From Pezizomycotina sp. ARF18 (lineage: Eukaryota > Ascomycota): a stretch of 61,137 nt of DNA. Location of the stretch: contig AZLU01000009.1 of assembly GCA_002224055.1 (NCBI GenBank), positions 223,782 to 284,918 on the forward strand. Reading direction: 5' to 3'. Below are positions 36,580 to 61,137 of the stretch, one piece after another. How positions within the stretch are numbered: the first letter of the stretch is position 1; the number at the start of each line of letters is the position of its first letter. The position numbers were made by a program, and so were the translations under genes. The notes under the pieces were generated by a model. The model did not search any database. It was not told the DNA's origin and saw only the letters and a program-made list of their open reading frames with translations.

Positions 36580-39500
36580 ATGATCAGTTTCTCGACCAAG
36601 AAGAACGAGACGCAGACCGGAACTACTATTCTTTTTCACTTCAACTGCAGCTCCAGGTGGTGGAGGCAACAGAATCACTACATTATCGCTGGTTACTACT
36701 AACCAATAAATAACACTCAAAGGAAAGTAACATTTTAAACGGATTTTTTTTTTTTTTTTTTTTTTAGGTATTTAGGACCGATGGACGGATACGATGACGC
36801 CCGTTTGTTCGGGTTCGACAGCGATACCTTGCGCGCCGCGTCCGTACGCGATCCCACGCCGCCTCCAGCGTACGAAGACGTCTGCGGGGATCGGGCGAAC
36901 GTGTTTGCGCGGCGAGGATACGTAAAGGTGAGGATTTTTTTTTTCACTTTTCTGTTTTTGTTTTCTTTTATCGTCACGATTTTTCTTTTTTATCGATATT
37001 TTTTTTTTTTTTCGGACGAGAAAAAAAAAGAGGGATACATTTAAAATTACAGTTGAAAAATTTTCACTTTTTTGTGCGAATTCGTCGTCCAATCGTTTTT
37101 GCAGTTTCAGGTATACAGGAAAGAAAGGAAGAATAGGAGAAGCACTTGGAGGAGGGGCGACATAACAAAGGACAATCGTATTGTCGACGAGAGGGATTGG
37201 AGGGGGAAGTGTGTTTTGCAGGCGCAAGGCCAAAGAAGGCTGTCTGGTCTGAAGAATAACGAGAGAAAAAGGAGCCTCCCTACTTTACTTTTCGCTCTAT
37301 CCCTTTCGGTAAAAATTGCAGAATTTCGAGAAGGGTGTCATTAAAAAACACACAGAGGCACCCCTTCGGAAAAGGACCGGAGGGGCATTCATGGAGTACT
37401 TTGAAGGAATGTTGATCGTGAAGAAAGAAAGGAACTTTTCTAACTCCCCTATTCTACTGCTTATTTTCAACAGGAATTCGACTCGTATATTCACAGTATC
37501 ATCGAGGCCTTTTCGTCGATTGTACCTCCTGCTTACGGCGCAGGCGAGGGGGAGAAAACACGATAACAACGGTAATGATCCTTACTGCAATTCCCTCTCA
37601 TTCGACTCCGACGAAAATGAAACCGCTACCGCTACCCGCAACAACAACAACCACAACAACAATAATACTGCCAAAAGTACACGGAGGTGTAGCGTGACCG
37701 ATTTTCAGCAGCAACAGAACAAGCAGGAGGAGGAGAAAAGGAGTCGCAGCAGCAGCAGCATCCCACCTTCGAATTCCAATGCATTGTTCGTTATTCGACT
37801 GGCGGCCAATGGGACCTTTGTTCTTCTTCTCCTTCTGATACTTCCTCTTGTTCTTGTTCTTGTTCTACTTTCTCAAAACCGTCTTCTTCTTCCCTTTCTT
37901 TGTTTCTACTTGTTCTTCTTGCTCTCCTTCGCCTCCCCGTCTTACTATTCCGTGGTTGACAAGTGAGTATTTATTATTATTATTATTCTATTTTATATTT
38001 ATTTATCCTTTTTTGGCTATTTGATTATTTTTATTTAATTTTAAATTTTGTGGTCCACTGCCCACTGCCCACTGCCCACTCCCTTTTTAAATAAACGCTC
38101 ATCACATCCTATATTGTTGACCCACTATTTACCCGGAATACCCTGCTTTCCTTCACGATAATTTATTTGTATTTTTTTTTTTTTTTTTATTTATTTATTT
38201 AACCACACCACACACACGACTAACAAAGTTACTTACCCTCCAAATAAAAAATAGAACCCAAGCCTCGCCGTCCCTCCTACCACCATTTCCTCAACCAAAA
38301 CAAAAGAATACCTCTACCTCTCGCTTCCCACGACCGGTACAAGTACCATCGACAGACGATAAGACAGAACCAGACGATAGTCACACGATACCCACGAACT
38401 TACCACTATTATTACGAAGTAACGAAACAATACCCGAAGCAAGAAAATAATACCCACCAGTACCTCCTACTCGAGAAGTTATTCGCGCTAAACGGGCCAC
38501 GCGTCGACCTCGGTGGAACACAGGACGTGGGGATCCGAGAACACAAGAAGGGGAAGAAGAAAGGGGGTGCGAATAACAATAACAATAACAATAACAGCAA
38601 CGGCAACAATAACAAGAGCACTGCAGGCGGAGGCTCTAGCGGCAACGGCAACGACTCGAACCCGGGAACACCAGTCGATGGGCCCGGAGGCAACGGCGGC
38701 GGAGACGATAACGGCGACGACGACAAAGACAAGGACAAGAAGAAGAAAAAGGACGACGACAAGGCCGAAGCCGAACGCCTGAAAAGGAAGAAGAGGAGCG
38801 CTTAGAAGCCGAACGCAAAGAGCAAGAGGAACAGGAAGAGCGAGACCGTAAGAGGCGACGGGAGGAAGAGGAGCGTAAAAAGAAAGAGGAAGGTGACAAG
38901 AAAAAAGAAGAGGAAGACAAAAAGGCGGCCGCCGCGGCAAAGGCTGCTGCTGCCGAAGCCGACAAGAAGAAAGAAGAAGAAGAAGACAACAGCATGAGCC
39001 AATGGGGCGTCGACAATGGCCCCAGTTGGGGCTTCGGGAACGGTGGCGGAGGAGCGGGGTTCGGTTCCAAAACCGGCGGTGGTGCCGCCGGAAACAAGAA
39101 GATGACAGTTGGCCAGAAGCGCGAACTCGAACGTGCCGAGCAGAGGAAAAAGAAATGGAGGAAGCCAACCGTCGGAAGAAGGAGCAGGAGGAAGCGACAA
39201 CGCAGCGGTTATTCGAGCGGAAACAGCAGCAGGAACGCCTCAAGCGCGAGGAAGAGGAGAAGCGCAAGTCGGCTGTCAACCCGAACGCATTCCGGGAACA
39301 CGGTAACAACAATACCAACGGCGGAGCGGGATTTACCTTCGGTGCTCCTAGGCCAACACCCGCACCGGCCCCGGTACCGGAACCCAAGAAGGAGGAAACC
39401 AAGTCCGGCGGCGGCTTCTGGGGCATGTGGGGTGTTGCTAAGAAGGTAGTCCAGGACCTCGGCGTAGAACAGGAGCAGCAGCCGAACGCCAGCTATCACC

Positions 39501-42500
39501 AAAAGCACGAAGACGCCGTATCCAGCGTTTCGAACGACAACGAAGGTGGCAGCACCGTCGGCTGGTTCGGCAGGCGGAGCAGCAGTAGTTCCAAGCCCCG
39601 TCCCGTAAGCCTGCAGCCGATCGCGGCGGAAAAGCCCGCCGAACCCCATCCCCCTCCGTAACCGCTATGCCCGTTATATCGGCGACGCCGAAGTCGCCAG
39701 CTGAGGAAGGCTTCAACATCAAACCTACTAGGAAGGGAGGAAAGGTGACACCCGCTGAAAAGCCCGCCGCGCCTGTCGACGAAGACAATGACCCCTGCGT
39801 CCCGGAATTCGTCAAGAAATCCCGCGCGCTACGGAAGACGACGACGAAGGTGGCGCCGACGCTACCGGAGGAACCGAACACTTCTAAGCCTAAGCCTAGA
39901 GCAGATCTTGACCTTGATCTTGACCTTGATAACCTCGACCTCACGGGGGCCGAGATCGATGAGCTTCTCGACGATCCAGTCGCTTCGAAGCCGAAGAGGA
40001 GCCGAAGAAGGCTGCTCCCGCTCCCGCTTCGAAACCGCTCGCTTCGCAGAACGCATGGGTTCAGCTACGGCAGTCAGAAGATCCGGCAAAACCTACGAGT
40101 CCTACTGCAGCGAAGAATATGACCAAACGGGAGCGCGAAAGGCTTCAGAAGGAAGATGAGGGGAAAAAACGGCGGGAAGAGGAAGAAGAGAAGAAGCGGC
40201 TTAAAGAAGAGCGGGAGAAGAAACGCAAAGAAGAAGAGGAGAAGAAACGTAAGGAGGAAGAGGAGAAGAAACGTAAGGAGGAAGAAGAGAGGAAAGCTAA
40301 GGAAGAGGAAGAACGTAAACGTAAGGAAGAGGAAAGAAAAGCCAAAGAAGAGGGAGAACGCAAGCGTAAAGCTGAAGAGGAGCGTATACGGAAAGAGGAA
40401 GAAGAGAAGAAGAGATTAGAAGAGGAAGAAAAGAAGCGGAAGGAAGAGGAGAGGAAGAAGCGTGAAGAGGAGCGGAAAAAACGCGAAGAGGAGAAGAAAA
40501 AGAGAGAGGAAGAGGCGCGTACGAAGAAAGAGGAAGAGGATAAGAAGCAGAAGGAGGAGGTGGAGAGGAAGAGACGCGAGCTAGCGGAGAAGCGAGCCGA
40601 AGCGGAGAGGAAGAGGAAGGAGGCGGATGAGAAGAAGGCCGAGGAGGCTAAGAAAAGAAAGAGGCCGAAGACGCCAAAAAGAAGAAGACCTCGAGGAAGC
40701 TAAAAAGAAGAGGGAGGCCGAAGAAGCGCGGAAGAAGAAAGAGCTTGAAGACGCAAAGAAGAAAAAGGAGCTTGAAGATGCTAAGAAGAAAAAAGAGCTG
40801 GACGATGCCAAAAGAAGAAAGAAGCTGAGGATAACAAGAAAAAAGAGCTTGAAGAGGCGAAGAAGAAGAAAGAGGCGGACGACAAGAGGAAGAAGGAGCT
40901 AGAGGAGAAGAAGCAGAGGGAGGCCGAGCTGCAAGAGAAACAACGTCTCGAGGAAGAGGAGTTCAAACGGAAGACTGCTGCTATCAAGCAGAAGAAGAAA
41001 ACAATCGATACCGTGGCAGCGGCAGCAGCAGCTACTACGGTCGCTGCAGTGGCAGTCAACAGTGCCAGGTCGTTTAAGAAGGATGACCCTGCGGAGATCT
41101 CTCCCTTGCCAACCCCCACAGACAAGAATACCGCTCGGAGCGGGATCTGGTCGTTTTGGGGAGGCTCAAAGGTATGTGTTTTTTTAGTTTCATTTTCTAC
41201 TGCTAAGCTGGTAAAATCCCCGGACCAGTCTTAGCATTCCACATCTTCAATCCCTCTACCTGCCCCATCATCTTCATCTCCATACCCGCCACGACTTCTA
41301 CTCTCTGCAACCCAATAATTCCTCTTATCTACATGTGGTTATTTCTGTTTCACCGTCTGAATTACTTAAACCCTTCTTTTAATGTGTTATTTTTCCCACC
41401 CTCCCTTTTATTTTTGCTCTGAATCGCTATGTAAAAAAAAATAATCACTATTCCTCATTCTCCCTTTCTCTGTTTTCTGCATCCTGCGCTGCACAGGCAC
41501 GAATCCGTGGTCGTTTCTGTATCACTGCAAGAGCTCGGTGCCTTTTTTTCGCTAGCACCGCTGCCAGTTTACCGCTATGTACTAGCGCTCCCCCCCCCCC
41601 CCCCCTTTTTTTTTTTTTTTCGCTGCACTGCTGCACTGCTGCGTTTTCACTTTTATCTCCCTATTTCCGAATTTTACTTATCTCTCACACCGATTCTTTC
41701 CACCCCCTTGGTCTCCCGTTCTCGCGAGTCCTGCATTCCCACGTATGCCATCCCATTTTTTATTTTCTCCCGTCTCAAGACAGCGAAAAGAAAGAGCTCA
41801 GAGTTGAAGGGGACTCTATCCCTAGCTGAGGAATATTACCCGAAAATGCCCCGAAAATAGAATCACCTGCTCTTGGGGCTGGGGTGATATTTTGATGAGG
41901 GAATGGCACGCAATGAGTCACATGACATCCTGCCACTTTTTCTTCTTTGGAAAGGGGGATGACTAATACGGGTGACACGCACTCCACTATTTTTTTTTGG
42001 CGCTGTTCTATTTCGTTTCCCCCTTCTCCTATTTTGTACCTTTTTTTTTTTTTGCTTTTCTTTCGTGCATATTGACGCTACCACGCAACCATTACGTTTT
42101 TTCCCGTAATAAAATTTCCCTCAAAGCTATCCCATTTTCGCTCTTTTTTTTCTCTCTCTTTCTCTTTCTCTCTCTTTCTTTCTTTCTCTCTTTCTTTCTT
42201 TCTCCTTCTCTTTATTCTCTCTCACTGCAATTTCATCAATTACTCTATCAAATTTATTATTCATCTCATCCATTGTTCCTCATCTCGCAATTAAACAATT
42301 ACATTTTATTTCTTCGTCCTCCTTTTCCCTTATTAATCTCACTCTTTACGAAAAAAATCAATATAGGAAGAAACATCCGCAACCTCCGATGACAACAATC
42401 CCGCACCGCCGTCACCGAAAGCACAGTCAAGAGCGAGAGGACTAGGGCTAGCGATCGACAGCAGCGCGAGTCCCGGATTATCAACGGACGAACCCGCTAT

Positions 42501-45366
42501 CCGTAAGAACACCGTCAAGAACGTCTACGCTACAGCAGACGGAGGTCCTAGATTATCGAGGTACGGGAACAAGGATATAGGAGGAGCAGCAAAAGTTTCG
42601 GAGAAGTCTCCGACGTCGCCACCATTGTCGCCTTCTGCTGGAGCTGATCCTTTCGCGTTCTTCGGAGCGCGGAGGAGGGGTGGTGGTCCGGATGATAAGA
42701 AGTATGGTCTGATATCTTTATTTGATGTTTTTTTGTGGGGTAATATCGAAAGGTGGTTGTTAACGATTAAACTTTTTTTTTTTTTTTTGTTGTTGCAGGG
42801 AACCACCTTCACCAACCAGATCGAAGGGAAGCGAACGTCCCAATCACCACCGAAAAAGAAAGACGCGGAAGCCGCTGCCGATAAACCAAAGATGAAATCC
42901 TCACCTGCTACCGCTAAAAAAGCAGCCGCGTCCGATAAAAAACCCGCGGTACGAAATCCGCCGATAAAAACCAGCTGAGAAAGCAGCAGAGCCATCCGGC
43001 GGCGGAGGATGGGGGCTCTTCGGCGGTGGAGCGGCAGTACCAACTAAAAAGCCGCCCCCGCAGCCAAGAAGAGCCCTCGCCTGATCCGAAGGCGGGAGAC
43101 GACGCCGTAGCCAAGAAGAAAGTTAGACGGATATCCGTAGCTGCTACCGGTTCACCGATGCCGAAAGCGAAGGAACCGAAATCGCCGACTAAGGAAGGTG
43201 CCGCGCCGCCCGTCCGGAAGCTCGAGAGGCGGAACACGGGAGGCGGCCTTTTGGGCTTTTTGGCGCCCGCTCCGCGCCGCCGAAGATGGTGAGGAGTAAA
43301 TCTGCGACTGCGGCGCCCACGACGAAGAAGAGCGAGGAGGAGAAGAAGAAGGAGGTGGATAAAGACGATGAGAAGAAGAGTGAAGAGGGTGGTGATGCTG
43401 CGCCGAAGGAGGAAGGCGCTGCGGCTGCGGAAGGCGGTGAGGGTGGCGAGGGATCTAATAAGCCTAAAGCTAAGAAGTCGGCGAAGGAGGCGCTAGCTGA
43501 AGCCAAAGCCCAGCGCGAGAAGCAGCGGGAAAAAGCGCGGTTGCAGATGATAGAAGCCGAGAAGCAGCGGAGAAAAGCGAAAGAAGCCAAAGAGAAAGCT
43601 AAGCGGGAAGCTCGCGAGGCCGAAGAAGCTAAACGCGCTGAGATACTGCAGAAGGCTAAAGAGAAGCGGAAGGCGGAAAAAGAAGCGAAGCGCAAAGCCG
43701 CTGAAGCCGAAGCTGAAGACAACGGAGGCGAGGGTGCAGTTACACCCACTGGAGGCGAAGAAGGTGCTGAAGGTGATAAATCAAAGCATACCTTAAGACC
43801 CCGGCGGCGGTATGGACATTGGGCAGTTCCGCGTTCCTGACACTCACTACCAGGTGCGAAATTCGAGTCGAATTCCGATTCTAGTAAGCACAAGCACCGC
43901 TCGAAGTCCGGTAAGGTTTCTTCCAAAGAGCATAAATCTTCCTCGAAGGAGAAATCCAGCAAATCCAAGTCCTCGAGATCTCCGGAGGAGAAGGAGAAGC
44001 GCAAGTCGAAGGCTGCCAAGGAGCCGGAGGCTGATGCTGTTCCTGAGTCTCCTACTGAGGAAGCTGCCCCGGCGCCCACCGAAGGTGAGGAAGCAGCACC
44101 GGCGGCTGAAGCTGCCGAAGGGGAGGAGAAGGCTGAGAAGGAGGTATTAGCTTTCGACGTCCCGTCTAACGAAGACGAGGCTTCCAGCGCGCCTCCGTCG
44201 CCTACGAAAGCCGAGGGTGACGATAAACCCGAAGGTGAGGAGAAACCTGAAGCCGGCGCCACCGGCGAAGAAAACGACGACGTCGATCCCCTACTCGACG
44301 AAGTCCGCCCTTCGAAGAAAGCCCTCGAGCGCCGCGGTACTAAAGCCGAGCGCCTCCTCGGCGAGAAACCGTCCAAGAGCAAGAGCAGCAGCAGCAAGTC
44401 TAAATCCCGCTCCGCCGAAAAGGAAAAAAAAGGAGAAAGAAGATAAAGAACACAAGAAATCCACGCGGCATATGAGCGCGAAGGAGCGGGAGGCGTACTT
44501 TAAAGAACGCGAAGCGCAATTACTCGCCGCGCGAGAAGCTAAATTAGCGGAGAAGGCACGCAAGAAGCAGGAGAAGGCGGATAAAGAAGCCGCTATCCAA
44601 GTTGCTAAAGCCGAAGAGGAGCGCCGCCGCGAAAAGAGCGTGCTGAAGCCACGCGCGCCGCGAGGAAGAACGAGAGCGCCGCAGACAGGAGCGTAAGGAG
44701 GAGGAAGCACGCTTGGCGGAAGCGCGCGAAGCTGAGCTAGCTGAATCCGACAAGCTGCGTAGCATACACATGGAAGCCGAGCGCGAAGAAGCCGAGAAGC
44801 GCGAGACGGAATTCCGCGAGGCCGCTGCGGAATACGACGCTTCCATCGGGAAATCCATCGGATCGTCCGCACGCTCCCGTCGCGGGTCCGATATTAAAGA
44901 AAAGGGAATAACGAAGGAAGAAAAGAAGCACGGCTTAAAGAAGCACGCCGCGCCGCACGCCGGGAGGAAAACGAGCTGCTGCTGCGGCCGCACTAAACGG
45001 CGATGATATTAAAAATCCCGCCGGAAGAGTAAATCCGAACAGCGAGAGAAAAACACCGCAGGGAGCGTTCCGATGACGAGAAGCACCGTTCGCGGGAGGT
45101 AGTTCGAGGGTAGCGACAGGAATTATATTCTGTCTAAAGAGGAGGAGGAGCAAGTACGCCGCGAAGCACGACGGGCTGCGCGACGCGAAGCGAAGGAGAT
45201 GCGCGGGAAGAGGGGTGAGGAGTCAGATTCTGAGAGCTACGAGCACAAGCGGGAGCGGAAGAGGGCTTCGAGGCAGGTTAGCGGGTACGGCGCTTATGAC
45301 GACGAGGAGAAGACGCCCAAGGCGGCCGTGCAGAAGGCTTCGACGTGGTTGAAGAAGCTATTCTAG
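36580..45366 (+). CDS. Giant Lys/Glu-rich coiled-coil protein with repeated Gly-aromatic motifs (multi-exon, frame-disrupted)
   Basis: A multi-exon gene encoding well over 2,000 residues. Candidate start is the ATG at 36580 (MISFSTKKNETQTG). An exon at about 36768-36927 reads MDGYDDARLFGFDSD ... PTPPPAYEDV. Another at 37474-37962 begins EFDSYIHSIIEAFSSIVPPAYG and becomes Asn/Gln/Ser-rich. The junction 37962/38255 joins in frame (PWLT-KPKPRRPSYHHF). The body (38255-41171, 42367-42701, 42799-45366) alternates Lys/Glu/Ala/Arg-rich helices (densest at 40119-41000 and 43490-43720) with disordered Ser/Pro/Lys segments (43880-44430). Gly-aromatic motifs recur: PSWGFGN, GGFWGMWGV, VGWFGR, GIWSFWGG, FAFFGA, GGWGLFGGG, GGGLLGF. 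The C-terminus ASTWLKKLF ends at the TAG at 45364-45366. Many one- or two-base shifts occur. Low complexity prevents a family call; a cytoskeletal or septal scaffold is only a guess. Two adjacent genes separated at the 1.2-kb intron cannot be excluded. Confidence 0.6.
37963..38254 (+). other. Intron in the giant gene (292 nt)
   Basis: Donor GTGAGT at 37963, branch-like GACTAAC near 38218 and acceptor ATAG at 38254. Splicing keeps the frame and splits a Lys codon (A / AA). The intron holds a CACTGCC tandem repeat (about 38056-38083) and a T18 run. Confidence 0.6.
41172..42366 (+). other. Unusually long intron in the giant gene (1,195 nt)
   Basis: Donor GTATGT follows the codons for FWGGSK, and acceptor ATATAG precedes EETSATSDDNNPAPP. 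At about 1.2 kb it is far longer than the other introns here. It contains a C16/T15 junction (41590-41620) and a C/T-rich tract at 42135-42215 of the kind that often sits upstream of fungal genes. It may therefore hide an internal promoter or mark the boundary of two genes. Confidence 0.5.
42135..42215 (+). promoter_or_regulatory. C/T microsatellite inside the long intron
   Basis: About 80 bases of CTTT/CTCT repeats on the plus strand, upstream of the EETSATSDD exon. It could be an ordinary simple repeat. If the giant locus is really two genes, it could instead be a C/T-rich promoter tract for the second. Confidence 0.45.
42702..42798 (+). other. Intron in the giant gene (97 nt)
   Basis: Donor GTATGG after the codons for GGGPDDKK, a long T-tract, and acceptor TTGCAG at 42798. 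Joining AA with G restores a Lys codon and continues with EPPSPTRSKGSERP. Confidence 0.6.
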
Positions 45367-46828: not shown

Positions 46829-49800
46829 ATGCGCTTGGCAGCGTACGGAACCGTAAGTTGTCCTTTTCGCATTGCTTCACTTCACATGTGAAATAGCACA
46901 TCTTTTCGAGCTAACAGTGTACTCTTTTCCTTACAGGTCAGCACCCTGCTGGCGACCGGAGTTGTCACCTATGCTTTCCACCAACGGGCGAACTTCTACT
47001 CTGCATCCGTCTATCTAGCACAATCAAATGCCTGTCTCATGGTCCGTACCTGCGCCGGCTGGGCCTCATCTGCTCCCTTTTTTTGGCCGCCACCCAACAA
47101 CAATTATCCGTGAAAAGCTGACAACCTTTTCCGTAAAAACCATCTTTCTAGATACTATGTAACTTCGGTTTCTTCCTTACGATACTCTTCGGCACCATCG
47201 TCCAGAAAATCTTCTACGGCCGCTGCGAGCGACGGAGATCGAGCACCTGTACGAGCGGGCGTGGTTCGCGGTCACCGAGACATGTTTAGCCATGACGATA
47301 TTCCGGGACGAGTTCGACGGGAGCTTCATCGTCATGTTTACGGTCCTGCTGTTCCTCAATGCTTCCACTGGCTCGGCAGCGACAGGGTGGATTTCGTACG
47401 GGACACTTTTTTTTTACTCTAGCTTAGATTTCTTGGCGTTTTTTGTAAGATTGCTGACAGCTCTTTGTCTTACTTTACTTTGTTACAGATGGAACAAACG
47501 CCGCCGACGAACCCTACGCTATTCCATACTAGGCTTTCGCTTCGCTGTTCTTACTCCTCGTTACGGACGTGCTCCTCACCAAGTACTGCGTTTCGACGCT
47601 GCTCGGCCTCGACAGGCCGAACATGACGGTCATGTTCGCTTTCGAATTCGCAATATTGACATAAGCTGCTCGTGCGTCACGGGGAGGTACATCCTCGGTC
47701 TGGTCGAAAAGCTTATCGTTTCCAAGCGCATTAACGCTGCGCGAGGTAGGATACAGGCGTCCATCCGGAGGAGAATCGCAGCCGGCGAGCTGGAAGAAGA
47801 CGACGAGGCGGAGGTCTTGGAGGACGAACTGAACGAAGGGGACTTGGGAGCTTGGGATGAGAAGGGGACGTACGTCTTTTACTTGGAGCTTATTACCGGT
47901 AAGTAGAGTTTTACTCTTTGAGGATTATTAATGGTGTTGGATGCTAATGTTGCTCTTCTTCCAGATCTCGTCAAGCTCCTCACGTACATGCTGTTCTTCT
48001 TCATCGTCCTAAGCGTCTACGGCCTCCCCTTCCACATCATCCGCGACATTTACCTCACGATAAGATCGTTCATCACGCGAATTAGGGATTTCATCCGCTT
48101 CAGGAGGGCTACCGCCCACATGGATTCCGCTACCCCGACGCGACGGCCGACGAGGTTGGACGGGAGGGAGTTTGCATAATTTGCCGCGAGGAAATGGTCG
48201 CTTGGACTGAACCTACCGGCGATAGTGCCGAGATCGGCGAGGAGGAACGCGCGCGCCACCAGAGGTCCCGACCGAAGAAGTTACCCTGTGGCCACGTTTT
48301 GCACTACTCGTGCCTCGCAGTTGGTTGGAAAGGCAGCAGAGGTGCACTTGTCGCCGGCCTGTTCTCGATGATGCGAACCCGGCTTCGGGGGTGGCGGGGC
48401 AACCTAACCAGGCTGCTGCTGCCGCCGCCGCCGCCGCTGCCCGAGGTGCTGCACCTGCGGGACAACCAGCTCAGAAGGTCAGCAACCACCCGCAGCCCAG
48501 CCGGGTGCCCAACCGCAGCTACCACAGCAAACTCCCGCTCCCAGCCAAATCAGCAGCAAGGGCAGCAGCAAGGGCAACAGCAACAGCCAGGTGCCGCCGC
48601 TCCGGTCAAGCGCCCTGCTGGTGGTTCGGAGCGCAATTGGTGGGCATTTCGTATAGGATTAGTGAGTGCTCAATTTGGCGTGGGTTTCGGTTTCGGAGCC
48701 CCACCCGGAGCCCGCAAGCCGCTCAGCAGCCACAACCAGCACAACAGCCACAAGCACAACTGCCAGCTGCCGGAGCCAATGCTCCTCCAGCTGGAGCTCG
48801 CGGCGGACCGTTTGGTATTTTCCAGGATGGCTTCGTTCAGGAATCGCGAACCAGCTAGCGCAGCGACAGCAAGAAATCTTCAGGGACAACAGGCACAGCA
48901 GGCTCAGCTGCAGGAGGGAATCCGGTTATGAACGCCACGTCCTGACGCAGCTTCACTGGCTCGACTCCATGGCCAGGAACCAGCACCTATGCTTACCCAG
49001 ATGTCGGATGAGTTGAGAGCCATGAGGGAGGAAGTTTCTCGAGGGAGAAGTTCGACCACGTCCACGACAACGGCGACAGATCAACCAGCAGCATCTTCGT
49101 CGACGCAGCTCCCGAAGCCGGTCAACCCACTCTTCCTACTACAGCTCCGCAAACCGCACCCTTGGCTTCTACGATTTCTAACAACGCACAGGCTCCATCT
49201 AGCTCTACGGTATTTCTGGGTTACAGCTGCCTCCCGGATGGTCCGTCGTACCACTGAATCCTCTCGGACAAACGCCAAGTGTCGCTAACAGCGTACCGAA
49301 CCTATTGGCCCATCGTCTCCTCGTCACTAGCACCGGCGGAGTCTCCCTTTCCACTTCCGGTATCCGCCGCCGCGGCGCCGACGCGACTACCGAACCCAAC
49401 TCCGGGACTGGCATTCCGCCCGCTCACCCGCAGCCGAACGTAGCAATCCCATGGCAGAAGCAACATCGCAGCAACCTCATCCGCAAACGAACCCACCATT
49501 ACTACCACCAGCAACGACAATAACAGAACCTCGAGAAGCAGCGGCCCAGGCGTCATTAACATGCCGCCGCGAAGTCCGCGCCCGTGAGCGAGGAAAACTC
49601 CCCACGTCCGATGAGCCCTCCGCTGCCGTCGCGCAGATGATGAACCGCCGTTCCGCTAGTAGGGGCCGGCGCTCGCAACCTAGAACCCCAGCAGCAGCGG
49701 CCACCGAGCCGTCAGCACAGCATGAGTCCCGGGAGCGCGAGGAATTTACCGCTCATGGATCCGGATATGAAGCTCTCTTAAACTTCCAGAAGCCAGCTGC

Positions 49801-50157: not shown

Positions 50158-51920
50158 TGGGGAGTGATAACGTTTTGTCTTTGTTTTCATTGTTTTATGT
50201 TATTGAGGGTGGAAGGATGTTATTACACCGTTATTGCAGAGGAGGATTTCTCTTTTTGTTACACCTTCATTCACCTTTTTTTTTTTTTTCTTTTTTTTTT
50301 TTAGGATTAAGCATTGCCTTGTCGTTGTTCTCCCCTCTTATTCATCACCATGCGTTACTTTATTATTAGTCACTACACATGCACAGTTTTTTTTAAGAAA
50401 ATTTCTTGGGGGGAAACTTTTTTTTTATTGACCCTAAGACTTTTATACATTACTTTAAGCTATTACTACCACTACTATTATCCTTTAAAAGCGAACCCAT
50501 TAAATAGTTTAAATCCTTCCCTCTATGCTTCTTGTTCCCTCTTCGTCGGTAAATACTTGACTTTATCCTTGCTCTTCCTCTTGCTTTATCGGTTCTCTTC
50601 TGTTCTTATTGGCATTACTTTACTAAAGTATGTTTGCAGCTCTTCTTTGCATTGGCATTACTTTATAACACAAGACTTCGTGCGGGTCATTTGAAAATAA
50701 ACAAAAGGGTTATGATATTGGTAAAGTGAGGAAATGATATTTGGAGGGAATGTTATGCGGCGTCGCTGTTTTGATGCTCGATACACTCTACACTCTCCTT
50801 AAGTGACGGATGCTTGAGGGGTGTGTGGGTGTGTACGGACAGTGTCTTGCAACTAATGGGGTGTATAGCATGGTTGCGCATGTGCAATGTTGCTGTGCAC
50901 TGGTTGACCAACTTGGCGCTATTTCACGTTGTCTTTTTTTTTTATGGTACCTTAGTAGACGTGTGTGGTTTGAAGTGGTATTGCCCCCCCCCCCCCCCAG
51001 CTCCCCCGGTAATAAGCGGCTTATGATATCGAACCGCGTCCTCGCTAGTCTCTGATAAAGATATGGCGGTTTTGTGGAAAGTGTGCTAGGTCCCCGGTGT
51101 TTGCTGGGTTAAGTTAGGAATATCATTTGGTGCAGATGGTCAAGGGTTTTTTTTTTTTTTTTGGCTTCTTCCGGATTAACTCTACTCTGCTTTCAACGTT
51201 AGCCGGTTGGGGGGGGGTTTGAGGCGTTTCTATGGATCCATGGGATTGTGGGATCAGGGCATTGGGAGGGGTATGGCACTAATTTGGGGGTTTTGATAGT
51301 ATCATCTTACTAAATGATACTAGCTACTAGCTAGTGTTTGTATTAGCACTACTAAAGTATCTTTCTGCCGTATAGCATTCCGAGTAGAAGATCTTTGGAA
51401 GTTTGTTGTGAGCCAGTGATTGGGGATGAGAAAGGTGGCTCGGAGAGGATTATGCTTTATGCTTTTTGGCTTTTTTTTCCAGATACGCTACTTCTATTTT
51501 TTATACGCCGTTGCGGAAGTTTGACGCCCGATTGCAAGTCGAGGGAGGAAGTATAGCATTGGACGGTGAAACGGGATGTTGTTGTGCGTTCCGAACGAAA
51601 CTTCGCGCCGTTTTATATACTTGATGTGCGGGGTGGAATACTTGACTTTATCTTTCTTCCCCTCTTCCGCCTCACTTTATGTTTCGGTTTTGAATAAAGC
51701 ATTACTTAGCAAAGCTATGATGAGCTTTTGTTGCAGAGGCACTGCTAAAATTTTGTTCGGTGCTGTATGACATTTTGGGGTTCAAGGTCCTCTTTGGAAA
51801 CTCTATTATGAGCCAATGGTTAAGGAGTGAGAAAGGTGATTTGGAGAGGGCGTGGTTTATCGCTTTTCGCCGTGTTTCTGCGTGCTCTACTTTCTGTTGT
51901 AGTTGATTGGGGTTTTTTTT
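50158..51920. other. Intergenic downstream of HRD1, start of the right gene-free block
   Basis: No gene is recognised. T-rich sequence and a C15 run (50984-50998) are present. Two related segments (near 51405-51435 and 51810-51840) share TTATGAGCCA and TGAGAAAGGTG-ttGGAGAGG-like words about 400 bp apart. They hint that the repeat array begins here in more diverged form. Confidence 0.4.
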
Positions 51921-54900
51921 TTTTTTTTTGGGGGGGGGGGGGGTTTTTATGGACAATAGCAGGCGCAATGGGAGAAATATGGTATGGTCGGGTCAGGTTT
52001 AGTGACGTTTGTGCGTCGCCCCCTTCCATCGTAAGGGTTTACTTTATGCGTGATGCAGACTTTGTTCGTAAAGTAGTCAAGTAGGAGTGTAAAACTATCG
52101 GTTGATGGTAACCTTTGGCTCCCCCTGGTGAAGATATCGATGTCGCCTTTGCTCGAGACTTTTTTTTTTTTTTTTTTCGCTAGAGGTTATGTACCCGGTA
52201 CGGCATTGGTGAGTTTTGAATACCTTGTATGGCACTCCTCGACTTTCTTCTCGGTTTTAGTGTTTACTCTTCTTTTTGTCCAGCATCCTCATCGACGGTT
52301 CAACTAACGTTTCTTTGATGGAAATGTTAAGTATCCGAGCTTTCTTGCAGAGATCCTGCTGGGTTGAGAGGGGTTTACGAGACTTTTGAGGTTTCTATGG
52401 ACTTTTCCCGTGAGCGATGGCCAGCAAGGGAGAAATATGGTGTAGTAGTAACGGCTTGAAGTTGTTATGGGGCCTTGTATACTGGTCTTAGTGTTTTTAC
52501 TTCTATCATTCCTGTTATTGCAGGACTTTACGTAGGAGTGGCGTATTATCACTCGATGACAGCATCTCCTGACGATAACAGGGACATTGGGAGAAAATAT
52601 GGAAGTTCTGGTGAAAAGTCAAATCGAAGGATTGTATGTGCTGATAACCGCAACTGCTTGTTAAGGTGTTTATCGTCGGATGTGGCTTCTGCTTTGGGCG
52701 TGGAGTGGTTGGTTGGTTGATATCGCACAGTTCCTGTATGAAGCGTAATTATCGAGTGATAGCCGGAGTTTTTTTTTTTTTTTTTTTTTTTTCACATATA
52801 TCCACAGCTGGAGCATTTGGTTTTTTTATTTGCTGTTTAGGGAGGGGGATGTTGAGTACGGAGTTGACGACAAACCTGGAGTGAGGTCTTTGGGGGTCTG
52901 CGAGACTTTCAAGACTACTATAGATAGATGAAGAAAATATGAGTGGGTTGAGTGCTAATGTTGCTATCCTTTGTTAGATCTCGATTTGTTTAAATTTATC
53001 CCGAAGTAGCGCTTCGCCGGTGTTGAAGCCTTAAGTATGAGGGGGTGTAATTATCGGTTAGGCGGTGGTCCAGTAAATTGTTAACTTGATATAAGGGAGC
53101 TCGTCGCCAGTACGGGCGAGTACGCTGTTGTCGTGTTATATTCCGGTGGCGCGCTCCGGGCTTCCCTAATTCTCCGCTGATAGATTTATGGCACTTCCTA
53201 CGGTGGATTTGGATTCTTTCTGGTTCTGTGATACTCGTTCTGGATTATCCCGCCAGCTCCCTTATCATAATATTCGCGTTTTCTGGAGGAGATATTTAGG
53301 TACCAAGCTTGCCCGTATAACTACCAGTGGGCTTTGAATACATCACGTTGTAAACGTTTAGGGAGAAATATGCGATTTTCGGTGACAGTATTGTTAGTAT
53401 ACATCGTAATCGCTCGTCTTTATTTACTTTTATCACTCGTCGGCAGTGGCTGATATTTGAAGCTTTCAAGTAAAGTATCTCTAGTGGTATAATATTCGGT
53501 TGATAGCAGTAAATCTTAGCTATCTGTCACCGCCAGGAACGAATACTCGTTGTCGGGTTATGCCTACCGGTCGTACGCGTTTCATGCGTTTTCATGCAAT
53601 TACGGAATTCTACCAAGTTGCGCTTTGTTTACTGAGTTTTGTAATACATTTTCTTTCTTTTCTTTCTTTTTTTTTATCTAACATGTTGGTCGGCGCTTTA
53701 CTCACTTTTCTTTTTTCTTTAAAAGAGATGGACAAGTATCGAGCTTGCTTGATTGTCCGATAGAGTTTGGAGTGTTTGCGAGATTTTCGACATTTCGATG
53801 CACGAGGTCGTCGGCCTCCAGGGAGAAATATGTTGTTTTCGGTGACCATTGTGCTGCTATACGGGAATACTTTGAGATTCGTTTACTTTATTAAGAGGGA
53901 TGTTTGTGGTGGTTATTGCAGTTTAAATATCTAAAGGCGTGTCAGCGGTCAATAGCGAAACATCCACTGGCTTTAATGAAGATATGGACGGTCACGAGCC
54001 CTTCACGGGAAACGCCGTGTTATGTTTCGTTTCGATCATTGCCGGCGCTATGCTTTCATTTTGCGGAAAACAGTGTATGGTATCTATCCGCGTCGAGGTA
54101 TATTGGGTTTTCTTTTGTCTTGTAATACCCGTTCTTTTATCCGCAGTACTAGTGCTTCAGAGCCTTTATCGGCTTTTTGTTTGAGGGAGATGTTACGTAT
54201 CAGATTTTGAACGGCGTATGGAGTGGGGGTTTTGGGAGATTTTTAAAGCAAAAGCTTCTATGTTTTATAACGTAGACGGTCAGGAGAAATACGAAGCTTT
54301 GGGGTGAGCGTAATCGTTGTTATGCGTCGTTTGTCTCTTCTGATTTGATTTATCGTCGGTGGTGAGTAGGTGTATTGGAGCTTGGGTATCGGGCGGCGCG
54401 CCGACGTGCTATCTGTTGATAGCGACGCATTCACTAATTTTTTTTTTATACATATAAAGCGGATATCGACGGCGGCGAGGACTTCACGGGGAAACGCTGG
54501 GTTATGTCTCGATGTTCAAGGGGCAGACCTTTTTTTTTTTCTCTCTTTTTTTGTCAAATACGGTATGGTTACGTCCCCTCTCGAGGTGTATTGAGGTTCT
54601 TTTGTGTTGTGATGCTTACTCTTTTTATCCAGTAGCTCGCTAGCTTTTTATTTGCGTTTTTGAATTTACTTAAGTATACTGGATGTTAAGTATTGAGCTC
54701 CCTGTATAAACTCCTGCGATGGAACTTGAGAAGGTTTGTAAGACGTTTCAAGGCTTCCTCTGGATCCTACGGTAAACGGTTGAGGAAATGTCGGAATGAT
54801 CGGCATACTGGTCATATTGCCTTTTTTAATACATAAAGGCCAATACTCTAATTTACTCTATGCTTCATGGTTTGTGGTTGATATTGCTAATTATAGGCTG

Positions 54901-56850
54901 GAACTGGGATTGCAAGTTGATGGCGGTAGAGCGTCGGGTCGATAAAGATATTGACGGGCTCGGTCGCATGAATGGGAAACACTGGGTTATGTCTCCCAGT
55001 CGCCTAGCTTCCATAGGATTTGAACATGTTACGACTTTCCAAACAAAGTTTGCGATGTTTGTTTCTTTTTATCCTGTGGATAGTTGTGTGCTTTATTTCT
55101 ACTTTTTTGAAGTGCCCAAGTAGGCGCCCAAGTATCGCGCTTCCCATAAAGCTCTTGAGCTGGACCATGGATGTTGGCAATTTTTTTTTGAAAGCTTCTA
55201 TGGATCGATCATACATTAAACACTCAGGAGAAATATGTAGTTTTCACTGACCTAATGCCATTATGCATTAGCTCTCTACCCTGTTTACTTTATCAAGAAT
55301 ACGTGATGTGGTTGATCTTGCCAATTATAGGCCATACCTGGTATGGTGGAGTTCATAGTAGTAAAGCGTCGGCTTGATAAGGAGGTATCGACGGCTGCCA
55401 GTATGTCCTACCTTGAGACACGCTGGGCTATAACCCCCCTGTCCTCTAGCTTTCACGAATTGAATACATCATGAGATTCTACGAAAGAAATTGTCTTCGC
55501 GATTTGAAATACTTGTTCTTTTTTTTAAATCCCTTCTGCCTCATAAATCTCATCTTCTACATTCTTTCTTTTCGAAGGTAGATGTTACATATCCAGGTTG
55601 CCCACAGAACGTCCGGGGTGGGTAAGTGGGGAGAAGTTGTGACACGTTCGAGGCTTCTATGGGCGCTGCGGTACCCGACGCGATGAGGAATATGGCATTT
55701 TGGGTAAGTGTAATTTTGTTACGCATCGTAGCCCCTACACTTACTCTATGGTTGGAATGTGGAGCGAATGATATTTGATAGCTTAACACGGTGCGTATAA
55801 TATTTGACAGCTCAAGACGGCACGTAATTATCTCGATGACAGCAAACAATGACCTGGGTAGCGTTGATAAGGAAGATATCTCACGCCACCAGTTGAGAAT
55901 ACGTTGAACCCGGCTATGGTCCACGTCGTCTTGCTCTCATGTATTTCATAAACGATGGATTCCTGGAAAGTTTTTTTTTCTTTTCTGGGTTTCTACCTTC
56001 TTGTAATGCTTTTGCTCTTTTCTATCGGGATAGTGTCTTTGGCGTTTACTCGCGTGCTTTTGAACGAAATGTTAAGTATCGGGCTTTCGTGTATAACTCC
56101 CTGGGTGAACCGTGGGGGAAGGGGGCTTGCGAGACGTTTTGAAAGCTTCTATACATGAGGTTGTACACGTTCAGGAGAAACACGAAGCTTTAGCTGGGTA
56201 TGATGGTGTTTGTCATTGTTCGCGCTTCTCTTCTTTTCTGTATCAAGGAGGACGACCGGTTGGAATTGCAGCTTAAGCACGGGGCGCAACTGTCGGTCGA
56301 TAGGGGCGTTGATAGAGATATCGACTATTGCCGGTATGCGAACGCTGCCACCAAGTATATGTGAAGAACGTTTGCCAGGATTTCTTTCAAAAATGTGCTT
56401 CATACGTTATGAAATTTGACGCATGGTTTCGGGCATTCAGAATTTTGCCAATGTACCCGTTTTATATGCCCCGGCTCGCTAGCTCTCCATTTTCATGTCT
56501 TGAAGGAGGTGTTAAGTATCGGAGTTGGCAGCATACCCCGAGTGGGTTTGAGGGTTTGCGAGAACTTTTGAAAGCTTCTATAAAGAGACTCGCAGGCGAT
56601 GAGAAAGATGGAGCTCTCGGCGACCATAATTTTGTCATACATTTTTACGTCAACGGGTTTACTTTACGGTGAGCAGGAGGTGTCTGGCTCGAATTGCGGT
56701 TTAAGTATGAGGCGTGTTGATAGTGGTGAATCATTCGCTTTATAAGATATCGATCGCTGCAACCACGAAGATCTTTAGGTTATGTCTGGACACTCGTGAG
56801 GCTTTCACGTGTTTCATACATTATGACATTTGCCAGGTCTGTTCTATATC
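51920..56850. repeat. Degenerate tandem array, monomer about 430-505 bp (clear part)
   Basis: The word GGAGAAATATG, or a variant, recurs at 51971, 52428, 52932, 53361, 53821, 54282, about 54783, 55224, about 55684, 56172 and 56600. The spacings are 457, 504, 429, 460, 461, 501, 441, 460, 488 and 428 bp. In most units other words keep the same order around it: GATGTTAAGTATCG, GCGAGAC, GAAAGCTTCTATGG, then this word followed by TTTTCGGTGACC, then TTTACTTTAT, TTGATAAGATATCGACGGC, GGGAAACGCTGGGTTATGTC, CTAGCTTTC and GAATACAT. Copies are strongly diverged and encode no shared protein. T-rich runs interrupt several units at a similar place. Confidence 0.75.
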
Positions 56851-57439
56851 CAAGGTTTGCAATGCTCATCTTCTATCGAGCACGCTCTAGATTTCACTAT
56901 CAGCTTTTGCCTGGAGCGTTGTGGAGCTCTGCGTAGTCGGTATGAGCGGGGTAGGTCTTCATCCGTCACGTGTCTTTGCAGGCTTTTCAGGGTTTCGCTT
57001 ATGTGCTACCTTTGGCAAGGAGTTTGACCTGTTCTTATGGGCTGCTCGAACATAGTTCCGAACAGGTTCTTCTTTTGGGAGTTGATTGCTTTATGGATAC
57101 TATGGTTCTTGGACGCCTGGGAGCTTTATGACGAGAAGGTCAGTGGGAACACTGTCAATTATGGCTTCCCTCGGCACTAGGAGCTTTGTTGGAGGGTTAT
57201 GCTTCGATGAGTGCCACTCTAGACTTTCATTTTAGTTTGATACACTTATGACATTTTTACGATCAAATAATTTTGGTCCATCGCCAGTTGTAACGCTTGT
57301 TTTTAATCTGGCGAAAATTGTTGGCTTTCACTACTTGCTTTTGTTTTGCGGGGGGAGATGCTAGTTATCAATCCTTAACGGAATCGCTGCGGGCTTTGGC
57401 TAGTGAGTAGGCGAAGCTTCGGTAGGCGATGGTGTTTGC

Positions 57440-57478
<39 letters not shown>

Positions 57479-59400
57479 CGCTTTATGTGATGGTCCGAAT
57501 GCCTCTGCGGATTGTTCTTATGAAGCCCCCGCGGCAGCCCTATCCCAACGTGTTTTTCATCTGAGGAGTTGCATCCTTGAGGCGGGTTTGTCATATGGCA
57601 TGCGGTGTAGCTACTATGCCTAGAATTTATGGCGAAAGAGCGTTCAGAGCCCGTAATCATATAATACTGTTCTGAGAGTGTGAGCTATGGACCATGCCTT
57701 CCCAAATGTCACTCTCTGTGGACATCGTTAGTATCGCGTGCTTTTCGTAGGGTGCTTAGGTTTTAATAGATATCGCCCTCGCCTTCCCGATACTGGAAGC
57801 TTTCTTGCTTGGTTTACGTCTCTATACTTGCTCAGCTCCGAGGACTTTTTATTCATACTTTTATGAAAGTTTACAATGATTGTATTCTGTGTTTGTGATA
57901 CTCGTTTGGTATCCGACAAGACCGCTTAGCTTTTCCTATTTGATATTCCTTGGGGAGATGCTAAATACCGATTTTTCCTAACATCGCTTGAGCGTTATGC
58001 GGAGGGATATCAAAGGTTGCCGGAATTTTTAGTGCGTAATGATATCCTGCGTGTTTTCGGGGTTTCGTTTACAGGGCGGTTTTTAACCTTTGATTGGCCT
58101 GTTTTTATCATCCTTGATCGTAGTACGAGTTTTCTCCCTTGGGGCCTTGATTGTTTATCGGTGGGATTGCTTGAGGTCTGCGAGGTTGTGTAACATAATA
58201 TATACGTTGAGGTTTGCGCAAACCCAGGAGATTTATGGCAAGGAGAGTGTTAAAGATATAACTACTCGAATGCCGTGAGTTTTATGACATGGTTTTGTTT
58301 CGATCACTCTCACTCTTAGGTTTTTTTTTTTTTATTCTTTTTTTTTTGTTTTGTAGAACACATTATTATGACATTTCACGAATAAGTCTAGGCACGAGAG
58401 ATTCAAGATTTGTCATACTCGTTCTCTTATTCCGCGTCTTTATCCTATGCGTTTTTGAGTGAGATGTCAAGTATGGGATTTTCCTGACATCAGTCGGGCT
58501 TTGCGTAGCGGGTATCACTTGATCTAGCGTGATAGTTCCAGCGCGGAGTGGCTTTTGCATGCTTTTCGAGGTCTTCGCCTTAAGGGCAGTTTCCAATCAT
58601 CCCTCCAATTTGGCTTATCGCTTGGAGTGTATTTTAAACAATTTTCTCCTGTTAGACTTAGATGATTTATGGACGACGGTTCAAGCGGCCGGTAAAGTAA
58701 TACATATATCACGTTTCTTTGACGCTGAGGACGTATCAAATGGCGTTTGGGGATATAATTATACAACTTTGCAACACCGTATCTACGGGCTTAACTTATG
58801 TCACATTAGTATTTCTAAGTTTACATTGTTTAGTAGATATCGATACTCGACTTGCCAGAGTTTTATTTTTTGTTTAGTACCTCTTTTAATATTCTTTGAC
58901 GATTATCTGGATCATCACCGTTCTGTAATGCTTCCTTTTTATCTTTCCGTTTCGCTAAGCGTTTATTGGCACTTCTTTGGATGGATTTAAGTATCGAAAG
59001 GTGTTCAGCTGAGAGAGGTATACGCAGTGAGTAAAAGAAGCTTTAGTGGCTGATGATTTTTCCTTTTCGAGGTTCGATCTACACAAACTTCCCCGCCATC
59101 CGTCTGATTAATTTTTATAGGACACTCTAAATACCTCCGAACAGCGCATTTTTGTTTTGTTGAAGTGTGTTGCTCGTTTTTTCTTATATCCGGCTCGCTG
59201 GGTGTTCATTAAATTTTTTCAGATGGATTTAAGTATCGACGTTGGCGGTGGGGTGGTTCTGCGTAGTGGGTACGGACGGTATCAGTGCACGTAGTGATAA
59301 TTTGCATGTCTTTACGGGCTTCGGTTTATCGGCTGTTTCCAATACGTTTAAATAATTTTTTCTATGATCTTAGACGTAAAAGTGGTTTTCTCCCTAGGGA
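56850..59400. repeat. Degenerate tandem array, second sub-type
   Basis: Continuing the array, units share a GAGATG-TAAGTA-like start (57356, 57955, 58462, 58984, 59224). Next come GGCTTTGCGTAGTGGGTA-like words (about 56931, 57395, 57985, 58497, 59014, 59259), then TTTGCATGCTTTTCGGGGTTTCG and GGGC-GTTTCCAA-like words. Spacings are mostly 470-590 bp. The start word matches that of the clear array, so this looks like a variant branch of the same family. It contains a T38 run at 57441-57478. Confidence 0.5.
57441..57478. repeat. T38 homopolymer
   Basis: The longest homopolymer in the window, inside a repeat-array monomer. Other long A/T runs are at 35970-35993 (A24), 36744-36765 (T22), 45770-45797 (T28) and 60177-60198 (T22). 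Confidence 0.85.
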
Positions 59401-61137
59401 ACTTAATTCTTTCATGAGGTCTGTTTGTCTGAAAGGGTAAGGCCGTATAATTGAGTTTCTTAGGCTCCTAGAGGTTTGTGGCGCGGAGTATTTCGAGAAT
59501 AACAGTTATTCATAATATTTTTTTTGATGCGTGTACTACGGATCATGTCCTCCAGAAGTCGTTCCCCGAAGACATCGTTTGTCAAGTCTTATGTATTTTG
59601 TCGTCCTCGTACACTTTTTTTTCTGTTTCGAGAAAGGGGACCATTTATAAAGCGACGAGACCTGTAGCTAATCCTGTAACGGTTGTTTCATATCAGAGCC
59701 TTTTAGACACCTTGGGGATTAATACTACCATGGAATGAGATTTTAACCACCTAATGTGTTCTATGTCCCTGCGGGGTATTTTGAGAGACTTTGCTACCAT
59801 TTCCCTTATGCCATGCTTCCCCGCCTTGCCTCTTACTTTGTGATTTGGTTTATGAGGGAATAGTCGCATACGACCAAATTCTTCGCTGAGAGATAGGACA
59901 AGATATCACAAGCGGAGGAACAGCTTAGGGAAAACAGCTTAGAGAAGAAGATAGGATGTAGTGAGTGCACTTACTCTCCGCCTATATCCTAATTCTTATA
60001 ATAACGCTCGTCATCGACGTAAATGTTGTGCTTGCGAGCGCTTTATGCAGTGGATGACCTTCGCGTGAATCGGCTAATCTTCATCAATATCTTTGAGAGG
60101 CTATCTTTGCGCTTTAAAATGCAACCCGCGCCTATCCATTAATAGTTAAAGCTTCGCTGTGGATGTGTCGACACCGTTTTTTTTTTTTTTTTTTTTTTCG
60201 AATGTTGTTTTATGCTGTCGGCGTGTAGCCACGATGACTGTGAGCTTATTGCGAAGCCAATTAGACGATTTCAATATTCTTATAAAAGTAATTACAACCA
60301 TGGTGTTTCTACGGTGCGGAACCTCTTTCATTTTTCGTTTACATCCTTTGTCAACATTGTGTGCTTTTCGTAGCCGACTTTGCTGCGATTTACTTCTACA
60401 CATCTTCGCTACAGGTGCGCGTGCGGATCCTCGATGCTTTGGGGAATCTGTGGCTCTGGAGTATCGTTCTCAATGTGACCAAGCTGGGGCCTTGCGGCGT
60501 TGCAAGGGGACTACCGATATGTTTAGTACTCCACGACATCACTTTTTTTTATACGTCCAGATCTTACTCCTGTGTTTTATAGCCTTCTATCTAGATATTT
60601 CCGTGAGTTTTGTTTATCAGAATAACGTCGGTGCTTATAGAAACGGTCTCTTCTTTTACAAAATTGAAGTTAATTTATAGCGCGTAGGGAGCGGTTCGAT
60701 AACGCGTAAATTGTTATGGATAGAAGACCCCAAGCTCTGATCGACGATAAATAGAGAGAATGATCGAGACATGAATATCCAACGTCTCGATCACTCTAAG
60801 ATGATTAAATTATCTTGGCTTCCTAGTTAACGTTGCGTTGTTTGTTAGACCGCGATGTGCTGTGTGTGTGTATGAATCATAGCTGCCTGTTCGCGGATTT
60901 GTTTATGATTTATCGAAATCTATTCGACCGAAATTGACTTTTCAAGTTTGGACTTTCTGTATCGATTATGTGGTTTTGCCCTGGGTAAGGGAATACATAT
61001 CACCTTCATATTTGTGAGTCAAAGGAGTATCGTCAAGATCTCGTCCAAGATCTTGTCACGCGAAGGGAATCGTTAGTGGAAAGCTATGTATAGGGGCTAT
61101 CATTTTTTAGTAGACACAGTGCATGCGTCCTTACCTT
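59400..61137. other. Gene-free right end
   Basis: No gene is recognised. A frame of 173 codons (60159-60680) begins in a T22 run (60177-60198) and has no family resemblance. Two perfect inverted repeats occur: TGATCGAGAC/GTCTCGATCA (60761-60770 and 60784-60793) and CAAGATC/GATCTTG (61034-61040 and 61049-61055). Confidence 0.4.

Follow-up and report, generated by a model that had tools for sequence, protein, structure and literature searches.

Xist and roX are long non-coding RNAs that contain repeats. Layered and decayed satellite arrays have been described in human DNA, where old alpha-satellite layers are reported to flank the centromeres (PMC2729386), and sensitive finders such as ULTRA are presented as being aimed at decayed tandem repeats (PMC11580682). 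The locus reported here lies on C9, a contig of 452.8 kb in a genome assembly of 46.4 Mb and 408 contigs, where about 17 head-to-tail repeats, all in one orientation, form an array of nearly 8 kb at about 275.7-283.5 kb. Gene content and short introns suggest that the assembly comes from a filamentous fungus. The array is real and very old, and as a feature it is fairly ordinary. Positions below are those of the window, i.e. the whole stretch of 61,137 nucleotides that was analysed (C9 bases 223782-284918), unless another segment is named.

Layout of the array and its surroundings

In a preliminary description, tandem repeats with a period of about 460 bp had been placed at 51920-59400, with eleven copies of a main type and a related sub-type continuing the array. 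The array was confirmed by ten units that aligned above random and were each recovered by a leave-one-out profile, and the proposed limits were good to about 300 bases, the last recognised unit ending at 59694. The main-type copies correspond to ten full units (A) plus a partial one, and the sub-type to six units (B), as follows.

46931-48928, plus strand: HRD1/synoviolin-like E3 ubiquitin ligase gene, recognised with Pfam in several frames
50200-51940, plus strand: T/G-rich left flank with weak internal repeats (50552/51637, 50612/51699, 51392/51791)
51941-52141, plus strand: partial A-type unit, the most decayed (17.5 bits, E 1.5e-5, outside the training set)
52214-52338, plus strand: junction block of the partial A unit (junction model 19.4 bits, outside training)
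52322-56910, plus strand: ten full A-type units, period about 465 bp, from profile and anchor words
52322-52834, 52847-53288, 53289-53713, 53726-54184 and 54187-54664, plus strand: A units u1 to u5
54682-55112, 55128-55577, 55580-56066, 56067-56506 and 56506-56910, plus strand: A units u6 to u10
53195-59243, discontinuous, plus strand: junction block of about 140 bp at unit boundaries (14 boundaries aligned)
56895-59694, plus strand: six B-type units, starting near 56896, 57355, 57954, 58460, 58978 and 59220

The start-to-start spacing of the A units, measured between anchors, was 521, 440, 445, 455, 498, 438, 456, 490 and 441, with a mean of about 465 bp that agrees with the period proposed, while B units were spaced by 242-599 bp and included a short fifth one (58978-59219). 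The two subtypes sit in separate blocks and have the junction block in common. A model of this block built from the 14 boundaries found two extra ones outside its training set, at 52214-52338 and at 52749-52864 (18.7 bits); its next best match in the window scored 7.0 bits, and 40 kb of flanking sequence, partly N, yielded at most 4.8 bits. The left flank did not clearly belong to the main unit, and neither the A nor the B profile had a significant match within 50200-51940. On the other side, the last recognised unit stops about 1.4 kb short of the window's right end. Self-comparison of 46-61.1 kb yielded 21 plus-strand matches, the reversed sequence giving 3; the 3 minus-strand matches were palindromes outside the array. 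A standard finder misses these repeats: TRF, with periods up to 500, left the array unreported and returned within it just a 29-bp duplication (two rows) and poly-T.

The array is located 3' of the HRD1-like gene and on the same strand. The membrane N-terminal part of this gene matched TPR_SYVN1_N (E 5.2e-23), for which the genome search returned 4 matches, all at this gene, and its RING region matched zf-RING_UBOX slightly below the cut-off (E 2.4e-5, 24.7 bits against 25.2); judged by eye, the tail of the gene would reach roughly 50.1 kb. HSP70 matches elsewhere in the assembly (C49, C70, C3 and others) were likewise split into neighbouring pieces, some of them not in the same frame, and the splitting of HSP70 and HRD1 genes may reflect assembly indel errors, introns or real decay. 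A run of N adjoins the right end of the window: the first 1000 positions of the next segment (L003:1-1000) contained not a single counted base, and the stretch of N seen from L003:900 onward stops at L003:1198. The downstream segments L003-L005 (C9:284919-314918), parts of which read N, contained few long open frames, one of them of 300 codons on L004. Within the window, the region 38000-44900 was rich in Lys, Glu and Arg codons and in short tandem repeats, and apparently encodes charged or coiled-coil proteins.

From about 50 kb on, the plus strand is T-rich and mostly G-rich. Between 50200 and 61137 this strand has 17 runs of at least nine T and none of A; in the rest of the window there are 21 T-runs and 16 A-runs. 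A T-run adjoining a G-run near 51.92 kb is an odd pair of homopolymers. The T excess persisted for about 3 kb past the N run (L003:1199-4000) and then was gone; the G excess showed no clear persistence over the same stretch.

Homology and divergence of the copies

When the ten A units were cut at the anchor word and aligned, their mean pairwise identity was 48.6% (range 42-60%), compared with 37-39% for ten sets of first-order Markov sequences aligned identically. Leave-one-out profiles of nine units recovered all ten, with 33.8, 46.4, 71.3, 107.0 and 77.6 bits for u1 to u5 and 80.3, 95.9, 69.8, 113.9 and 108.6 bits for u6 to u10, the best control score being 7.1 bits (ten profiles against 20 first-order Markov sequences of 11 kb each). 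Since the units score so far above the control (33.8-113.9 bits), the outcome named beforehand as fatal to the array, a profile scoring no better than on shuffled sequence, does not occur. For the B units, whose scores rest on five-unit profiles and are not comparable in bits with those of A, four of the six were clearly recovered (19.3-43.8 bits), one was marginal (8.6 bits; control maximum 6.5) and that at 58978-59219 was unrecovered when left out (-0.8 bits). The A profile weakly matched B units at model positions fitting the B boundaries, one match reaching E 6.7e-4 and the others being non-significant singly.

The closest of the 45 A-unit pairs were three adjacent ones (u4-u5, 58%; u6-u7, 57%; u9-u10, 60%), as expected from local tandem duplication or unequal exchange, and the remaining 42 pairs had 42-55% identity. 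Over all pairs, identity correlated weakly with distance (rank correlation, rho -0.22, p 0.15). Leave-one-out scores of u5 to u10 varied between 70 and 114 bits; from u4 leftwards they dropped through 107, 71, 46 and 34 bits to the 17.5-bit partial unit, beyond which nothing was significant. Together with the block-wise subtypes, this leftward drop resembles an array in which homogenisation has ceased. Because the mean identity is only 48.6%, and homogenised satellite units are highly identical, the array is at most a defunct satellite and is not filed as an active one.

The differences between copies were rich in transitions. In blastn comparisons, whose scoring gives transitions no preference, 128 of 249 inter-copy mismatches were transitions (61 alignments, E up to 10), whereas 30 Markov controls gave 134 of 431, with 0.32 expected. 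This argues for real mutation rather than random noise, although it is not decisive for every sequencing platform. The corresponding bias in the MAFFT alignment (337 of 570 mismatches) was discarded, random sequences aligned alike giving 0.57. A similarity of an HRD1 intron to 52938-52983 (E 0.19) was dropped as chance.

Coding potential, RNA structure and further copies

The array is non-coding, in agreement with the earlier view that its copies share no coding potential. The longest stop-free stretch of the consensus was 65 codons (control mean 68), and the units do not share a reading frame as a tandem gene family does. Conservation lacked a three-base rhythm (phase means 0.671, 0.633 and 0.650), and 38 of 213 gap runs were multiples of three. 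Pfam gave no match above the cut-off for ten open frames of the array and its flank (one row at E 0.017), nor for an eleventh. RNA gene units were rejected as well, as no structure was found: RNAalifold predicted zero pairs for either A alignment, and the mean folding z of ten units (20 dinucleotide shuffles each) was +0.63 on the plus and +0.21 on the minus strand, so that the conserved or unusually stable structure of structured non-coding RNA repeats was not seen. With Rfam, nothing in the array matched at E values up to 5; two rows scored below the gathering score, both of them left of the array, and no tRNA was detected in the window.

To the extent that searches weak at this divergence can tell, the array is likely unique in the genome. 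DNA queries with three array stretches found themselves alone and missed even sister units, so search sensitivity is low and other copies are possible; a query with 50200-61137 gave 12 matches, all of them poly-T stretches, and missed itself. One gapped pattern had zero matches genome-wide, the array included. Three further patterns of array words (22, 23 and 25 positions, 3 mismatches allowed) matched 10 places in the whole genome, 8 of them inside the array (3 of 4, 3 of 3 and 2 of 3 per pattern, each pattern thus matching just 2-3 array places). The two outside places, at C15:37482 (plus) and C15:65076 (minus), had 3 mismatches each and lay 28 kb apart in opposite orientation; the backward control of the first C15-matching pattern likewise matched once. 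As neither of two models matched in C15:27000-74999, we took these places as chance and not as further copies. The unit model had no match in 30 kb downstream or 10 kb upstream (parts read N). A family with one site per chromosome, which the preliminary description had named as a sign of a structural role, was accordingly not detected by these low-sensitivity searches, the pattern places being confined to the array and C15.

Origin of the array and alternative explanations

The preliminary description had also pointed to scattered words conserved among the diverged copies, and this gained support: conserved columns cluster more strongly than an even-rate neutral model yields. Conservation varied more among windows of 12 columns than in neutral simulations similar to the array in identity and indel load, in which the rate was even, with no mutation hotspots or clustered indels. 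In six of the seven settings none of the 40 replicates came up to the observed variance, and in the seventh one did. Ten units were simulated in five of the settings, two on a star and three on a paired tree (the third of these with a somewhat high mean identity of 50.7%), each giving 0 of 40; the other two used seven units, one of each close pair having been removed, and gave 0 and 1 of 40. The best 12-column window was reached by 0-6 of 40 replicates. There were 51 columns with at least 90% conservation, where the simulations averaged 40 and 34 and came up to 51 in 3 and 1 of 40 replicates; those at least 80% conserved showed no excess (107 against means of 112 and 96). Since the simulations had no hotspots or clustered indels, the clustering is a lead to possible constraint on these words and not a demonstration of it.

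Changes from the consensus leaned to T and G in six of six complementary pairs, none of them significant singly; when pooled, 168 of 788 amino-to-keto and 280 of 1612 keto-to-amino changes were counted (p 0.02). The consensus skew was not significantly above a stationary simulation, where 7 of 40 replicates reached it on either skew. Strand-asymmetric mutation was therefore adopted neither as skew decay nor as upkeep, as no single pair differs and the consensus skew is non-significant. Founder composition, transcription or replication may account for the strand bias.

We believe that the locus is probably a single-locus, non-coding, satellite-like array that grew by unequal exchange, whose homogenisation has ended and which is now decaying. 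The founder would have been a T/G-rich unit of about 460 bp next to the HRD1-like gene, multiplied on the spot through unequal exchange; the B units, with the same junction and a different middle part, would stem from a second wave or else from an older layer. Homogenisation would then have ceased or slowed strongly, leaving the copies to decay, most of all at the left edge, through point mutations, indels and the growth of poly-T. Within this explanation, the tandem order, the homology and divergence of the copies, the closeness of some adjacent pairs and the absence of a coding signal, an RNA-structure signal and a detected second copy were observed, and unequal exchange, the order of events and the lack of a present function are what we infer. 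Against it, the words cluster more than plain even decay predicts, identity correlates only weakly with distance, the T/G strand bias stays unexplained, and the loss of an array this diverged might be expected unless something keeps it.

Alternatively, the array might be constrained, its words being putative chromatin elements, protein-binding sites or segments of a long non-coding RNA that selection keeps while the rest drifts. The clustering above neutral simulation, which held with the paired tree and the reduced set, the excess of columns at least 90% conserved and the word order kept in ten copies all favour this, and the strand bias could reflect transcription (pooled p 0.02). We nevertheless consider it rather unlikely, as there is no surplus of columns at least 80% conserved, no complementary pair is significant singly, RNA structure and Rfam matches are lacking in the array, and mutation hotspots, clustered indels or alignment effects could yield like clustering. 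The narrower form, in which the repeats would be old regulatory or chromatin-organising units by the HRD1-like gene, with selection keeping ordered words in units of about 460 bp for a very long time as the rest drifted, and the array thus escaping standard repeat tools, strikes us as unlikely. That the units might be the remains of a family of small genes arranged in tandem is suggested by their gene-like size, and frame splitting of the kind seen in HSP70, frequent among the genes of this assembly, could hide open frames; but with consensus frames at chance, no three-base rhythm, indels not in threes and eleven open frames without a Pfam match above the cut-off, such pseudogenes are improbable.

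The proposed pericentromeric, subtelomeric or heterochromatin-nucleating role gained no support, whereas the great age and tandem origin proposed with it did. Layered subtypes and a decayed edge do recall layered alpha satellite, and the next 30 kb (parts N) are poor in long open frames, but the array is under 8 kb long, lies beside a conserved gene and has no second array detected by the low-sensitivity searches, and we regard its belonging to a centromere or heterochromatin block of the chromosome as very improbable. The repeats might also be a much younger, near-identical satellite blurred by poor sequence next to a gap, for which the N run at the window's right end, the HSP70 and HRD1 genes in different-frame pieces (possible indel errors) and odd homopolymers such as that near 51.92 kb could speak. 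However, the divergence far exceeds occasional indels, and assembly indel errors would be too few to produce it; the copies form subtypes and close pairs; and their substitutions are transition-rich, even if base-calling errors of some platforms are likewise transition-biased. Moreover, two intergenic stretches of 11 kb within the window do not clearly surpass the array in short-word structure (two-base words, 3.5 millibits in the array against 5.5 and 5.3; four-base words, 23.8 against 13.6 and 14.8 millibits). An artefact of this kind seems to us extremely unlikely.

The decaying satellite-like array that we favour means that the copies of a tandem array can fall below 50% identity while the array persists, unreported by a standard finder, and such arrays record how homogenisation stops. 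Were the clustered words constrained, this would be a cryptic regulatory array, worth seeking elsewhere.

The array is like Xist and roX in that words recur over several kb in a single strand orientation, but it is known from sequence alone and, unlike them, its units carry no RNA structure signal. With layered alpha satellite (PMC2729386) it has in common head-to-tail non-coding units, block-wise subtypes and older copies in which homogenisation has stopped; it differs in being one locus of less than 8 kb, with neither a family elsewhere nor a centromere link detected. It is also like the targets of ULTRA (PMC11580682) in that its tandem repeats can escape a standard finder, and unlike that work its detection came from a profile HMM and sequence-only covariance models.
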